Origin: Motilibacter rhizosphaerae
GTDB lineage: Bacteria; Actinomycetota; Actinomycetes; Motilibacterales; Motilibacteraceae
Direction of reading: 5' to 3'
Length of the DNA: 64,000 nucleotides
Assembly: GCF_004216915.1 (NCBI RefSeq)
Contig: NZ_SGXD01000005.1
Span: forward strand, 124,001 to 188,000
The notes under the pieces are model-generated. The model did not search any database and had not been told where the DNA came from. It was given only the letters and a program-made list of their open reading frames with translations. A program made the translations under genes and the position numbers. Of this stretch, positions 34,918 to 43,808 are shown one piece after another (positions within the stretch are counted from its first letter, which is position 1; the number at the start of each line of letters is the position of its first letter).

Positions 34918-35724
34918 GTGAGCATGCCGTTCTACGTCTCGCCCGAGCAGGTCATGAAGGACAAGGCGGACTACGCCCGCAAGGGCATCGCCCGCGGTCG
35001 CAGCGTGCTCGTGCTGGCGTACGCCGACGGCATCCTCTTCGTCGCCGAGAACCCCTCCCGCGCCCTGCACAAGATCTCGGAGATCTACGACCGGATCGCG
35101 TTCGCCGCGGTCGGGAAGTACAACGAGTTCGAGAACCTCCGGGTCGCGGGCGTGCGGATCGCCGACTTCCGCGGCTACGCGTACGACCGGCGTGACGTCA
35201 CCGGGCGCGGGCTCGCCAACGTCTACGCGCAGACCCTCGGCACGATCTTCACCGAGACCTCGAAGCCGTACGAGGTGGAGCTCGCCGTCGCCGAGGTCGG
35301 GGAGTCCGCGGACGAGGACCAGATCTACCGGCTCACCTACGACGGCTCGGTCGCCGACGAGCGCGGGTTTGTCGCGATGGGCGGCCAGGCCGAGGCCATC
35401 AGCGCCGTGCTGCAGGAGCGCTACCGCGACGGCCTGCCGCTGGCCGAGGCCCTCCAGCTGGCCGTGGAGCTGCTGGGCCGCTTCGGCGGCGGCGGCGAGG
35501 GCCGCGTGCTCGAGCCCGCCCAGCTGGAGGTCGCCGTGCTCGACCGGGGCCGGCCGCGGCGCAAGTTCCGCCGCATCGCCGGTGCCGCGCTGTCGGCGCT
35601 GCTCGGCCGCGAGGTGCAGGACGTCGCGCTGGCCCCCGACGACCCCGCGCTGCGCGAGGTGCCCGGCCCGACGAAGCTCGCCGGCGGCGCCGTCGAGCCG
35701 CCCGGGCCCGCGCCTGAGGCCTAG
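34918..35724 (+). CDS. prcA: 20S proteasome alpha subunit
   Basis: PrcA builds the outer gating rings that receive ARC. The 268-residue product starts [20 protein letters not shown], the gating N-terminus. It then has [55 protein letters not shown] and NRPRR-like [12 protein letters not shown] near the end. It lacks a catalytic Thr, as expected. AAGGAGG lies 11 bases before the GTG at 34918; an ATG at 34924 is the alternative and would shorten the gate by two residues. The C-terminal 40 residues are Pro/Ala-rich. Confidence 0.96.
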
Positions 35725-35776
35725 GCGCTCGCGAGGCGGGGCATGATCCCGGCGACCGACAGCCGGGAGGTCTGCC

Positions 35777-36187
35777 ATGCCGGGACGCCAGGAGCTCCCC
35801 TCCACCCTCGAGCGCTCGCCAGAGAAGGCGCAGGACACGTGGGTCGCCGCCCACGACTCCGCGGTGGAGACCTACGGCGAGGGCGAGCGGGCTCACCGCA
35901 CCGCCTTCGCCGCCGTGAAGCACGGGTTCGAGAAGGTGGGCGACCACTGGGAGCCCAAGGAGGAGAAGGGCCCGAGCGACGCGCAGGCGGCCCGCGACCC
36001 GAGTGCGGGGTCGCGCCGCTCCACGGGCGGCACCGCCGGTGGCGTCGACGCCAACGCGTCCAAGGAGCACCTGCTGGGGATCGCGAAGCGGCTCGGCGTG
36101 AAGGGCCGGTCGCGCATGCGCAAGGCCGAGCTGGTCGAGGCGATCCAGCGGGCCAACGACCGGGAGACGGCCAAGGCGCGGCGCTGA
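35777..36187 (+). CDS. ChaB and Rho N-terminal domain protein
   Basis: The 136-residue basic protein combines an N-terminal ChaB-like region (MPGRQELPSTLERSPEKAQD, then AHRTAFAAVKHGFEKVGDHW) with a C-terminal SAP-like Rho_N domain (SKEHLLGIAKRLGVKGRSRM followed by RKAELVEAI). A Gly/Ser-rich linker lies between. Such proteins are small and probably bind nucleic acid, but their role is undefined. GGGAGG lies a few bases before the ATG. It sits between prcA and the DNA-repair-like gene. Confidence 0.82.
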   Translation: MPGRQELPSTLERSPEKAQDTWVAAHDSAVETYGEGERAHRTAFAAVKHGFEKVGDHWEPKEEKGPSDAQAARDPSAGSRRSTGGTAGGVDANASKEHLLGIAKRLGVKGRSRMRKAELVEAIQRANDRETAKARR

Positions 36188-36192
36188 CCGCT

Positions 36193-36215
36193 CTGTCAGT
36201 GGCCCGCGGCATGCT
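36193..36215 (+). promoter_or_regulatory. PafBC-type (RecA-NDp-like) promoter
   Basis: CTGTCAGTG (36193-36201), eight bases, then CATGCT (36210-36215). The known PafBC-dependent promoter is TTGTCRGTG-N8-TANNNT. The upstream element matches at 8 of 9 positions, the spacing is exact, and the -10 keeps A2 and T6. The ATG at 36222 is six bases further on, so the transcript would be leaderless. pafB and pafC lie 5.6 kb away. Confidence 0.6.
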
Positions 36216-36221
36216 GCGGGC

Positions 36222-37106
36222 ATGATCGTCCTGCCGGCCTCCGGGCCGTTCTCGCTCGCCGCTGCCGCTGCGTTCTGGTCGGGCTTCCCCGCCGGGTCCG
36301 GCGACGGCCGGGGCGCCGTGCTCGAGCTCGCGTTCCCGGCGCCGCCCGGGTGGGGGACCGTCGCGGTGCGGCTCGTCGAGGATGCGGCCGGCGTCGGCGT
36401 GGACGTGCTCGAGGACGGCGGGCTGGGCGAGGGCGAGGTCGCCCGGCAGGTGGCCCAGGTGCTCTGCCTGGACGTCGACGGGTCCGGGTTCGGCGCGCTC
36501 GGGGAGCGCGACCCGGTCGTGGCCGACCTGCAGCGGGGCGCGCCGGGACTGCGCCCGGTGCTCTTCGCCACGCCGTACGAAGCGGCGGCGTGGACGGTGA
36601 TCGGCAACCGCGTCCGGCAGGCGCAGGCGTCGGCGCTGCGCCGGAGGATGGCCGAGCAGCTCGGCGTCCGCGTGACGGCGTCGTCGGTGCCGGCCTTCCC
36701 GCCTCCGGCCGTGCTGGCCGGGCTGGACGGCTTCCCTGGCCTGCCCGACCCGAAGCCCGAGCGGCTGCGGGCGCTGGGCCGGGCCGCGCTCGACGGGGTG
36801 CTCGACCGCGACCGGCTGCGGGCCCTCGGGCGCGAGGAGGCCGTGGCCGAGCTGCTCCGGCTGCCCGGCATCGGGCCGTTCTCCGCCGAGCTCGTGTGGG
36901 TGCGCGGCGTCGGCGACCCCGACGCCCTCCCCACCAGCGAGCCGCGCCTGCAGGCGGCGGTGCGCGCCGCGTACGGGCTGGGGGAGGGCGCGGGGCCCGA
37001 CGAGCTGCAGCGGGTCGCGGAGTCCTGGCGGCCCTACCGCTCCTGGGTGGCGCTGCTGCTGCGTGCCCGGGCCGGGGCTCAGACCTCCGGGGGCCGCGCC
37101 TCGTGA
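36222..37106 (+). CDS. AlkA-like DNA glycosylase (HhH-GPD family) lacking the usual catalytic Asp
   Basis: The 294-residue product resembles DNA-3-methyladenine glycosylase II. It has an N-terminal beta domain, then [20 protein letters not shown] (helix entering the HhH domain), and [19 protein letters not shown], the helix-hairpin-helix. In AlkA the following LPDD holds the catalytic Asp; here the same place reads [10 protein letters not shown], with no Asp. It may use another residue, remove only weakly bound bases, or merely bind lesions. A PafBC-like promoter directly upstream supports a DNA-damage role. Its 3' end overlaps the opposing small gene by 28 bases. Confidence 0.8.
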
Positions 37107-37531
37107 CCCGGGAGGCCGTGCGTGCGCCGGTCCTCCTTCAGCTCGGCCTCGTAGACGTGGCGCTTGCCGTCGGTGAGCTCGTCGCGCACGGTCCGCTCGA
37201 GCTCGCGCACGGTCGACCAGTAGCCGTCGTCGTAGTCCTCGACGATCTGGAACGTCCAGCGGCCCTTCAGCACGTTGCGGCCGGTGAGCTCGGTGTCGAT
37301 GCGGTCGGCCAGCTCCGTGTGGCCGGCCTCGCGCAGCTGGCGAGCGGCGTCCTCGATCTTGAAGTCGGCCTCGCCGGTGAGCTGGTGGAAGTCGAACAGC
37401 CGGCCGCGGGCCCGCTCCACGGTCTCGAGGGCTTCGGTGAGGCGGCCGACCGCGGCGACGGTGGCGTCGTCGAGGCCGGAGGGGCGGCGGTGGTCGTCGA
37501 GCATGCGTTCGGTGTCGGGCGCGTCGGTCAT
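37079..37531 (-). CDS. conserved actinobacterial protein of unknown function
   Basis: The 150-residue product is charged and mostly helical: [40 protein letters not shown], then [20 protein letters not shown] and a C-terminal [20 protein letters not shown]. No domain is recognised, though the sequence looks like a conserved actinobacterial hypothetical. The ATG at 37531 is divergent from pafA with a 78-base shared promoter region that contains an inverted repeat. A near-match -10 (TAGCAC) seven bases upstream suggests a leaderless start. Its 3' end overlaps the glycosylase gene by 28 bases. Confidence 0.75.
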
Positions 37532-37609: not shown

Positions 37610-38971
37610 ATGGACCGGCGCATCTTCGGCATCGAGAACGAGTACGGCGTCACCTGCACGTTCCGCGGACAGCGCAGGCTGTCGCCCGACGAGGTGGCGC
37701 GCTACCTGTTCCGCCGGGTGGTGTCCTGGGGTCGGTCGAGCAACGTGTTCCTCGCCAACGGCGCCCGGCTCTACCTCGACGTGGGCTCGCACCCCGAGTA
37801 CGCCACGCCCGAGTGCGACGACGTCGTCGACCTCGTCGTCCACGACAAGGCCGGCGAGCGGACCCTCGAGGGCCTGCTCATCGACGCCGAGCGGCGGCTG
37901 CGGGAGGAGGGGATCGCCGGCGACGTCTACCTGTTCAAGAACAACACCGACTCCGCCGGCAACTCCTACGGCTGCCACGAGAACTACCTCGTGGGGCGCG
38001 CGGGGGAGTTCTCCCGCCTGGCGGACGTGCTCATCCCGTTCCTCGTCACCCGCCAGATCGTCTGCGGCGCCGGGAAGATCCTGCAGACGCCGCGCGGAGC
38101 CGTCTTCAGCGTGTCGCAGCGGGCCGAGCACATCTGGGAGGGCGTCTCCTCGGCGACGACGCGCTCGCGGCCCATCATCAACACCCGCGACGAGCCGCAC
38201 GCCGACGCCGAGCGCTACCGGCGCCTCCACGTCATCGTCGGCGACGCCAACATGGCCGAGCCCACGACGCTGCTCAAGGTCGGCAGCACCGACCTCGTGC
38301 TGCGGATGATCGAGGCCGGCGGGGTCATGCGCGACCTCACGCTGGAGAACCCCATCCGGGCCATCCGCGAGATCAGCCACGACGTCACCGGCCGGCGCAA
38401 GGTGCGCCTCGCCAACGGGCGCGAGGCGTCGGCGCTGGAGATCCAGGAGGAGTACCTCACCCGGGCCCGCGACTTCGTCGCCCGCCGCGAGCTCTCCGAC
38501 CCCACCGTGGACCGCGTGCTCGACCTCTGGGAGCGCGCCCTGCGCGCCGTCAGCACCGGCGACCTCGACCTCGTGGGCCGCGAGATCGACTGGGTGATCA
38601 AGTACAAGCTCATCGAGCGCTACCGCGCCAAGCACGGCATGGAGCTCTCCGACGCGCGGATCGCCCACCTCGACCTGGCCTACCACGACATCCGCCGCGG
38701 CCGCGGCCTCTACTACCTGCTCGAGGCCCAGGGCGTCGTCGACCGCGTAGCCAACGACCTGCGCATCTTCGAGGCCAAGTCCGTGCCCCCGCAGACGACC
38801 CGGGCCCGCCTGCGCGGCGAGTTCATCAAGCGGGCGCAGGAGAAGCGGCGCGACTTCACCGTCGACTGGGTGCACCTCAAGCTGAACGACCAGGCGCAGC
38901 GCACGGTGCTCTGCAAGGACCCGTTCCGCTCCGTGGACGAGCGCGTGGAGAAGCTGATCGCGTCGATGTAG
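37610..38971 (+). CDS. pafA: Pup-protein ligase
   Basis: PafA uses ATP to phosphorylate the C-terminal Glu of Pup and joins it to substrate lysines. The 453-residue product is a glutamine-synthetase-like ligase: [14 protein letters not shown] (Mg-binding Glu residues), [20 protein letters not shown] with the catalytic Asp, [31 protein letters not shown] and [20 protein letters not shown]. It lacks the long Dop loop. GGGAAGGGGG precedes the ATG at 37610; a GTG three bases earlier is less likely. Twenty-two bases after its stop begins the left arm of the inverted-repeat unit. Confidence 0.97.
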
Positions 38972-39215: not shown

Positions 39216-40178
39216 ATGGACGCGCACCCGCCCCGCCAGCTCCCCACGGGGATGCCCTTCACCCGCGCCGCCGCGCTCGCCGCCGGTTGGACGCAGGGGG
39301 AGATCAACCGCAAGGTCCGCAGCGGCGAGTGGGCGCGGCTCCGGCACGGGGTCTTCCTCGAGGCTGTGGTGCACCGCAGCCTGCCGCCGCTCGGCCAGTA
39401 CTCCATGCTCGTCCGCGCGCACCTGCTCAAGATCGGCGCGGCGACGGTGAGCCACGGGGCAGCCGCGGCACTGCTCGGGCTGCCGGTGCCGTGGCCGCTG
39501 TCCGGCGTCGAGCTCACGAGCGAGCGCAACGAGACCCGCACGCGCGACGGGCTGAAGGTGTGGCGCGCGCCGCTTCCGCCGGGGCACGTCGTCGCGGTCG
39601 AGCCCGACCTGCTGGTCACGGCGCCGGCGCGCACGATCGTCGACTGCGCGCGCACCCGTGGGTTCCGCGACGCGCTCGTCGTGGCGGACGCCGCGCTGCG
39701 TACCGAGCTCACGACGCCCGAGGAGCTGCGCGAGGTCCTCGAGGTCGTCCGCACCTGGCGCGGCTCCCCGCTCGCGGCCCGGGTGCTGACCTCGGCCGAC
39801 GGTCGCTCCGAGTCGCCGGGGGAGACGCTGCTGCGGGTCGACACCCGCGGACTGGGGTACGCGCCGGTGCCCCAGCTGCTCGTCGAGGGCCTGTCGGGCC
39901 GTTGGTACCGCGCCGACCTCGGGCTCGAGGAGCTGGGTGTCCTGCTCGAGTTCGACGGGGCGGTGAAGTACCGCGCTGACGACCACCGCGTACTGCTCGC
40001 CGAGAAGGACCGCGAGGACGACCTGCGCGCCGCCGGCTGGGGCTTCGTGCGGGTGCGGTGGTCCGAGCTCGGGCAGCCCGAACGACTCCGGGCCCGCATC
40101 GAGGCCGCCGCGGCGACCAGCCGACGACCGCGGACCGCGGGCACCGTGCTCGAGCTGCCGAGGCGACGCGGGCGCTGA
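39216..40178 (+). CDS. AbiEi-domain protein with a C-terminal DUF559/Vsr-like nuclease fold
   Basis: The 320-residue product starts with a winged-helix AbiEi-type region (FTRAAALAAGWTQGEINRKV, then WARLRHGVFL, residues 14-50). The middle domain has GAATVSHGAAAALLGLPV. The C-terminal region is like a very-short-patch-repair or DUF559 endonuclease: SPGETLLRV with Glu203, YRADLGL with Asp234, and LLEFDGAVKYR with Glu245, Asp247 and Lys251, followed by AEKDREDDLRAAGW. These residues could form a PD-(D/E)XK site. No paired AbiEii-type toxin is adjacent. It is the only gene inside the inverted repeats, so it may be the cargo or the driver of the unit. Confidence 0.8.
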   Translation: MDAHPPRQLPTGMPFTRAAALAAGWTQGEINRKVRSGEWARLRHGVFLEAVVHRSLPPLGQYSMLVRAHLLKIGAATVSHGAAAALLGLPVPWPLSGVELTSERNETRTRDGLKVWRAPLPPGHVVAVEPDLLVTAPARTIVDCARTRGFRDALVVADAALRTELTTPEELREVLEVVRTWRGSPLAARVLTSADGRSESPGETLLRVDTRGLGYAPVPQLLVEGLSGRWYRADLGLEELGVLLEFDGAVKYRADDHRVLLAEKDREDDLRAAGWGFVRVRWSELGQPERLRARIEAAAATSRRPRTAGTVLELPRRRGR

Positions 40179-41859: not shown

Positions 41860-42840
41860 GTGGCGTCCGCCAGCCCGTCGCGCGGCAAGACCGAGCGGCT
41901 GCTCAACCTGCTGCTCGCGCTGCTCGCGACCCGGCGTCCGCTGACCAAGCAGGAGCTGCGCCGGCTCGTCCCGGGCTACCCGGACTCCGACGAGGCCTTC
42001 GACCGCAGCTTCGAGCGCGACAAGGACGAGCTGCGCGAGCTCGGCGTGCCCGTCGAGACGGGCAGCGTGAGCGGGACCGACCTGTTCGCCGACGAGGTCG
42101 GCTACCGCGTGCGCCGCGAGGCGTACGCGCTGCCGGAGGTCGCGTTCACCCCCGAGGAGCTCACCGTGCTCGCGCTCGCCGCCCGCGCGTGGCAGTCGGC
42201 GGCGCTGTCCGGGCCGGCGAGCCGGGCGCTGCTCAAGCTCCAGGCCAGCGGGGCCGGCGTGGACGACGCCGCGGTCGCGGGCATCGAGCCGCGCGTCTCC
42301 TCGAGCGAGCCGGCCCTCCTGCCGCTGTGGCAGGCGCTGCGCGACCGGCGGCCGGTGCGCTTCGCGTACCGCCGGGGCTCCGCGGGCGAGGCCACGACCC
42401 GCACCGTCGAGCCGTGGGGCGTCGTCGCGCGCGCCGGGCGCTGGTACCTCGTCGGCCACGACCGCGACCGCTCCGCTCCGCGCGTCTTCCGGCTGAGCCG
42501 CATCACCGGCGCGGTCCGCCCGCTCGGGCGCCCCGGCGAGGTCGAGGTCCCCGCCGACGTGGACCTGCAGGCCGCGGTCGCGGCCGTCTCGCCGCAGGCG
42601 GGGGCGGGCACGGCGCACGTCCGGTTGTCACCCGGCAGCGGCGGCTGGCTGCGCCGCTCGAGCACGGCGACGGCGGATCCGGACGTCGTCGCCGTCGGCT
42701 ACTCCGACCCCGACCTGCTCGCCGCCGAGCTCGTCGCCCTCGGTCCGGCCGCCGTGGTCCTCGACCCGCCGGAGGTCCGCGAGGCCGTCGCCCGCCGGCT
42801 CGCCGCGGTCGCTGCCGCGCACGCAGGAGCCGCGACGTGA
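41860..42840 (+). CDS. pafB: WYL-domain transcriptional regulator PafB
   Basis: PafB, with PafC, activates the LexA-independent DNA-damage response of actinobacteria. The 326-residue product has an N-terminal winged helix (KTERLLNLLLALLATRRPLT, then FDRSFERDKDELRELGVPVE), the WYL domain (WQALRDRRPVRFAYRRG, then WGVVARAGRWYLVGHDRDR, FRLSRITGAVR) and a C-terminal WCX domain. The GTG start follows GGAAGGGGG. Its stop overlaps the pafC start (GTGA). Despite the name it is not part of the proteasome. Confidence 0.95.
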   Translation: MASASPSRGKTERLLNLLLALLATRRPLTKQELRRLVPGYPDSDEAFDRSFERDKDELRELGVPVETGSVSGTDLFADEVGYRVRREAYALPEVAFTPEELTVLALAARAWQSAALSGPASRALLKLQASGAGVDDAAVAGIEPRVSSSEPALLPLWQALRDRRPVRFAYRRGSAGEATTRTVEPWGVVARAGRWYLVGHDRDRSAPRVFRLSRITGAVRPLGRPGEVEVPADVDLQAAVAAVSPQAGAGTAHVRLSPGSGGWLRRSSTATADPDVVAVGYSDPDLLAAELVALGPAAVVLDPPEVREAVARRLAAVAAAHAGAAT

Positions 42841-43808
42841 GCGGCCAGGCCGCGGGCGAGCGGCTGGCGCGCCTGCTCGCCCTCGTGCCGTACCTCCTCG
42901 CCCGGCCGGGCGCCCGGGTGGAGGACGTCGCGGCGGCCTTCGGCATCGACGAGGAGCGGCTCGTCGACGACCTCCAGCTGCTGTTCGTCTGCGGCCTGCC
43001 CGGGCACCTGCCCGACGACCTCATCGAGGCGAGCTTCGAGGGCGGGGTCATCCACGTCGGCAACGCCGACGCCATCGCCCGGCCGCTCCGCCTCGGCGCC
43101 GACGAGGCGCTCGCGCTGCTCGTCGGGCTGCGCGCGCTCGCCACCGTCCCCGACGTCGTGCCGGGCGGGATCGGGCGCGACGCCCTCGACTCGGCCCAGG
43201 CGAAGCTCGAGCGGGCGGCGGGGGACGCCGCCTCCGCCGCGGCCGGGATCGACGTCACGGGGGTGCGCCCGGCGCCCGAGCCCGCGCTCGCGACCGTGCG
43301 CAGCGCCCTCGAGGAGCGCCGCCGGCTGCGGCTGCGCTACTACGTCCCCTCGCGTGACGAGACCACCGAGCGCGACGTCGACCCCATGCGCCTGCTCGTC
43401 GTCGAGGGGCGGGCCTACCTCGAGGGCTGGTGCCGCCGCGTCGAGGACGTGCGGCTCTTCCGCGTCGACCGCATCGAGCGCGCGGAGGTGCTCGACGTCG
43501 CCGCGGAGGTGCCGTCGACGGCGCAGCCGCGCGACGTCGACGCGGGCCTGTTCGCGCCCGCGGAGTCCGACCTCAGCGTCGTGCTCGAGCTCGCCCCCGA
43601 GGGCCGTTGGGTCGCGGAGTACTACCCCTGCGAGAGCGAGGAGGAGCTGCCCGGCGGCGGGCTGCGCGTCGTGCTGCGCACCTCGCAGACGGCCTGGGTC
43701 GTCCGGCTCGCCCTGCGCCTCGGCGGTGCCGGCCGCGTCGTCGACCCGCCCGAGGTGGCGGCCGACGTGCTCCGGGCGGCGCGCGAGGCGCTGGCCGCCT
43801 ACGGCTGA
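42837..43808 (+). CDS. pafC: WYL-domain transcriptional regulator PafC
   Basis: PafC is the obligate partner of PafB. The 323-residue product has a winged helix ([39 protein letters not shown]), the WYL core ([20 protein letters not shown], then [34 protein letters not shown]) and a WCX domain ending [19 protein letters not shown]. The aromatic and Arg residues of the WYL pocket are present, consistent with sensing single-stranded DNA or another ligand. The first codon is a GTG inside the pafB stop. A 102-base gap follows. Confidence 0.95.

Follow-up and report, generated by a model that had tools for sequence, protein, structure and literature searches.

The intergenic region at 36193-36221 of the window (the whole 64,000-nucleotide stretch of Motilibacter rhizosphaerae DNA analyzed here) is, with high probability, a PafBC-dependent promoter of the RecA-NDp type that would be activated by PafBC and single-stranded DNA and would yield a leaderless mRNA of the AlkA-like gene at 36222, promoter and gene being located together in a lineage-specific insertion. 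The regulation itself is of an ordinary kind and concerns a glycosylase subfamily that is uncharacterised; outside mycobacteria, the predicted PafBC regulon gains a gene of the base-excision-repair type.

Architecture of the promoter

The elements of the promoter and the genes on its two sides are as follows:

35777..36187, + strand: gene for a ChaB + Rho_N domain protein, the upstream neighbour (domain search)
36193..36201, + strand: -26 element CTGTCAGTG, the PafB contact element of PafBC-type promoters (from the sequence; rule in PMC5656591, PMC11804915)
36210..36215, + strand: -10 element CATGCT, with C at -12, A-11 and T-7 kept
36222..36222, + strand: transcription start predicted from the 6-nt spacing common to the regulon, at or adjoining the first base of the ATG, which would make the mRNA leaderless
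36222..37106, + strand: AlkA-like gene of the HhH glycosylase family, 294 aa, with Glu240 at the position of AlkA Asp238

TGTCRGTG is matched exactly at 36194-36201 and is followed by the spacer GCCCGCGG (36202-36209), which has the 8-nt length of PafBC-type promoters, by the -10 element, and by six nucleotides, GCGGGC (36216-36221), that lead to the ATG at 36222. Thus, the element, the 8-nt spacing and the six bases to the ATG are all as the first-pass annotation had described them when it placed a PafBC-like promoter directly before this gene. The site shares TGTCRGTG, the 8-nt spacer, A-11 and T-7, and the location before DNA-repair genes with the mycobacterial RecA-NDp/P1/PafBC promoters such as recA P1, and departs from their published consensus, tTGTCRgtg - 8 nt - TannnT (PMC5656591), at two positions, with C in place of the weakly conserved first t and C for T at -12; compared with TAnnnT, CATGCT keeps the A and the final T and has C at the first T position. 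A further difference from the mycobacterial promoters is that nearly all sites in the present genome lie 6-8 nt before a start codon and are predicted to be leaderless. The promoter fills the 34-nt gap 3' of the chaB/Rho_N gene, which ends at 36187.

When scored with a matrix derived from the genome's other sites, the site reaches 20.4 and is the top PafBC-type site in the window (the second-best, at 15.3, is without the last T of the -10); this score is partly circular, as a pattern search had served to find those other sites. One match to a looser form of the motif is present in the window vs 0.32 expected, which by count alone is weak evidence.

Other ways of starting or controlling the gene were considered and rejected. 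In this reading frame no start codon is available ahead of the ATG at 36222, which speaks against an alternative start, and the chosen start is backed by a GPF motif near the N-terminus of the protein that aligns with the orthologues. No ordinary sigma-70 promoter (-35/-10 pair) was found in 35600-37200, the lack of a good sigma-70 -35 being itself a feature of PafBC-dependent promoters, and no intrinsic terminator was found in the same region, hence none between chaB and the AlkA-like gene. LexA control was discarded given that there is no SOS-box-like match (≤2 mismatches) between these two genes; in the whole window, such matches with 2 mismatches number 55 vs 44 expected, which is near chance.

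The motif across the genome

The pattern TGTCRGTG-N8-YANNNT matches the genome 46 times vs 0 for the reversed pattern, and the sequence on either side of each of the 45 others was inspected in the corresponding genome stretches. At 30 of the 33 other CTGTC-type sites, a start codon (ATG/GTG) lies 5-8 nt after the -10, vs 9% of background positions, indicating that the predicted PafBC regulon is almost wholly leaderless, with a strikingly uniform layout. Ten of these sites belong to near-identical DUF222 copies, without which the proportion is 20/23. Unlike the matrix score, this test is not circular: the spacing rule was derived without the site studied here, which fits it and so obeys the genome's own rule. 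The C at -12 is recurrent in this regulon, all 7 other CTGTC-type sites with a CANNNT -10 having a start codon 6-7 nt downstream.

PafBC-type promoters precede some thirty other genes in this genome. The genes downstream of the sites include recA, uvrB, dnaX, sbcD, vsr and rmuC, an epsilon-like exonuclease with GIY-YIG, a SprT-like gene and DUF222/HNH genes; polA- and radA-like starts also follow sites, recognised by eye only.

The DUF222 (13E12-like) genes are a multicopy family that has spread together with its DNA-damage promoter: at least 10 near-identical genes (L039, L040, L043, L045, L055, L058, L068, L070, L082 and L083, all in the M. rhizosphaerae genome) each carry their own PafBC-type promoter, CTGTCRGTGGTGGCTTGTACGTT or close to it, ending exactly 6 nt before the ATG. 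Sites similar to the DUF222-type promoters occur in the sister species (G001). A protealysin-type M4 metalloprotease gene (L053:457-1494) is likewise preceded by a full PafBC-type site with a CAGGCT -10, 6 nt before the ATG.

The motif before orthologues

Among 90 scanned upstream regions (80 named orthologues of the AlkA-like gene and 10 from relatives), 17 contain the motif at a strict score of at least 12, vs 0.2 expected from shuffles, including orthologues in Amycolatopsis and Streptosporangiaceae. In ten Amycolatopsis loci, a near-perfect site lies 82-106 nt upstream of the first aligned residue and is followed by a longer leader, and in Acrocarpospora pleiomorpha, Sphaerisporangium melleum and three f17 genomes the site ends a few bases before the ATG (6-7 nt in the f17 genomes). 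Microbispora orthologues have weaker versions upstream, and the motif is absent from most orthologues (Nonomuraea, Streptomyces, Catenulispora, Rubrobacter). These comparisons suggest that PafBC-type control of the AlkA-like family is recurrent, not universal. Many Nonomuraea orthologues (among L095-L162) keep TACCAT, then six or seven bases and the ATG, with TGTC missing; apparently, these promoters have switched away from PafBC control or never gained it.

The locus and its lineage-specific segment

The genes of the window include arc, dop, pup, prcB, prcA, chaB, the AlkA-like gene, a convergent gene, pafA, pafB, pafC and tatC. The remaining features of interest are:

36188..37067, + strand: segment missing in G001, G002 and G004, comprising the promoter and nearly all of the AlkA-like gene (edges approximate)
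37610..38971, + strand: pafA, Pup ligase (start approximate)
41860..42840, + strand: pafB (WYL, WCX)
42837..43808, + strand: pafC (HTH_PafC, WYL, WCX; start approximate)

Both subunits of the putative activator are therefore encoded in the genome, and the WYL regulators lie 5.6-6.6 kb downstream (pafB at 41860, pafC at about 42837), in agreement with the 5.6 kb given in the first-pass annotation.

Four genomes of the same family (G001-G004) share this arrangement of prcBA, pafA and pafBC but have no AlkA-like gene there. In G001, from the same genus, chaB is followed by ~40 bp and then the convergent gene; the arrangement in G002 and G004 is like that in G001, with gaps of ~51 and ~115 bp, respectively, and G003 has neither the AlkA-like gene nor chaB. 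Thus, the AlkA-like gene and its promoter were either inserted between chaB and the convergent gene in one lineage or lost in the others. A gene for an AbiEi-like antitoxin-type protein lies between pafA and pafB (window 39216-40178); a relative is present in G001 and was not found in G002-G004.

Proposed mechanism and alternatives

In Mycobacterium smegmatis, PafBC bound to single-stranded DNA acts with sigma-A RNA polymerase; PafB recognizes the -26 motif, and PafC makes contact with sigma domain 4 (PMC11804915). By analogy with this system, we propose that DNA damage would expose single-stranded DNA and thereby activate PafBC, that active PafBC would associate with sigma-A RNA polymerase wherever a promoter carries the -26 element TGTCRGTG, standing in for the missing -35 contact, and that transcription would start at or beside the ATG at 36222, giving a damage-induced leaderless mRNA.

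The motif could be fortuitous, in which case expression of the AlkA-like gene would depend entirely on read-through from chaB or on some other promoter. By chance, 0.32 loose-pattern matches are expected per window, the -10 element has C at -12, and chaB is located on the same strand 34 nt upstream, with no terminator found between the two genes, all of which would fit this possibility. Nevertheless, we consider it improbable, given that the reversed control gives no full motif anywhere in the genome, that the site keeps the start-spacing rule of the regulon, that the motif recurs before orthologues in independent lineages, and that the motif just fits into the 34-nt gap. A real promoter might also be served by sigma-A with an activator other than PafBC, such as ClgR, for which recognition of this P1 motif has been reported in mycobacteria (work cited in PMC5656591). 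However, in vivo binding and reconstitution experiments published later attribute the motif to PafBC (PMC6789036, PMC11804915), and pafBC sits in the same locus as the promoter, making ClgR or a similar activator an improbable candidate.

The AlkA-like protein

The identity of the protein rests on NCBIfam, a PDB profile search and the fold; a Pfam search of the 294-aa sequence gave no match. The NCBIfam AlkA profile scores 38.6 bits, far under its 229-bit cut-off, and the PDB profile search matches AlkA at E 8e-26. The structure model (pLDDT 93) aligns over its whole length with Archaeoglobus fulgidus AlkA (Z 26.6) and with Escherichia coli AlkA (1mpg) at Z 25.0 (rmsd 3.3, 263 residues aligned, 24% identity). 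Judging from the model, the full AlkA fold with the HhH-GPD module is present, so that the expectation of a repair-type gene within the proteasome locus, amid prcBA, pafA and pafBC, holds as far as the fold is concerned.

The profile alignment places Glu240, which is also the consensus residue, at the position of AlkA Asp238, which we take to be the catalytic residue of AlkA, so the active site lacks the Asp. Across 80 orthologues (L084-L163), this position is occupied by Glu in 76, Asp in 2, Thr in 1 and Met in 1. Accordingly, the similarity to E. coli AlkA (3-methyladenine DNA glycosylase II; PDB 1mpg, 1diz) extends to the full-length three-domain fold and the helix-hairpin-helix PGIGPFSA, whereas the Glu and the low profile score set the protein apart; we assign it to the wider fold family and do not claim AlkA proper. 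The Ada-AlkA fusion encoded in the same genome has Asp at the Asp238 position, and no PafBC motif was found in the 4 kb inspected for it.

The comparison highlights a glycosylase subfamily in which the catalytic residue is altered and induction by damage is likely. It is conceivable, if still doubtful, that this is a widespread, uncharacterised actinobacterial Glu-for-Asp subfamily of the AlkA fold, damage-induced and under PafBC in several lineages, that may differ from AlkA in lesions or mechanism and exists beside an Ada-AlkA outside the PafBC regulon. In Mycobacterium tuberculosis, the alkA-ogt operon also includes an AlkA-type gene and is damage-induced, as is only predicted for the AlkA-like gene; however, its induction was reported not to depend on PafBC, being seen in a recA-deleted, pafBC-silenced strain, and a putative SOS box was described (PMC8151990).

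Linkage of pafBC and the proteasome genes

The first-pass annotation had further suggested that the regulatory link to the AlkA-like gene explains why pafBC stays in the proteasome locus. The promoter and pafBC are indeed only 5.6 kb apart, but the four family relatives retain the linkage without the AlkA-like gene, which therefore does not explain it. Within 3 kb of the AlkA-like orthologues, prc or true pafBC occurs in 0 of the 80 named ones; WYL matches at two Acrocarpospora loci are 29-34% identical and represent generic WYL regulators, not pafBC. Moreover, PafBC control needs no physical linkage, and at least 30 further sites carrying this motif are located elsewhere in the genome. Hence this explanation is extremely unlikely, and one proposed reason for the pafBC-proteasome linkage is removed; the literature instead proposes that the proteasome removes PafBC-induced repair proteins after damage (PMC6789036, PMC8223512).
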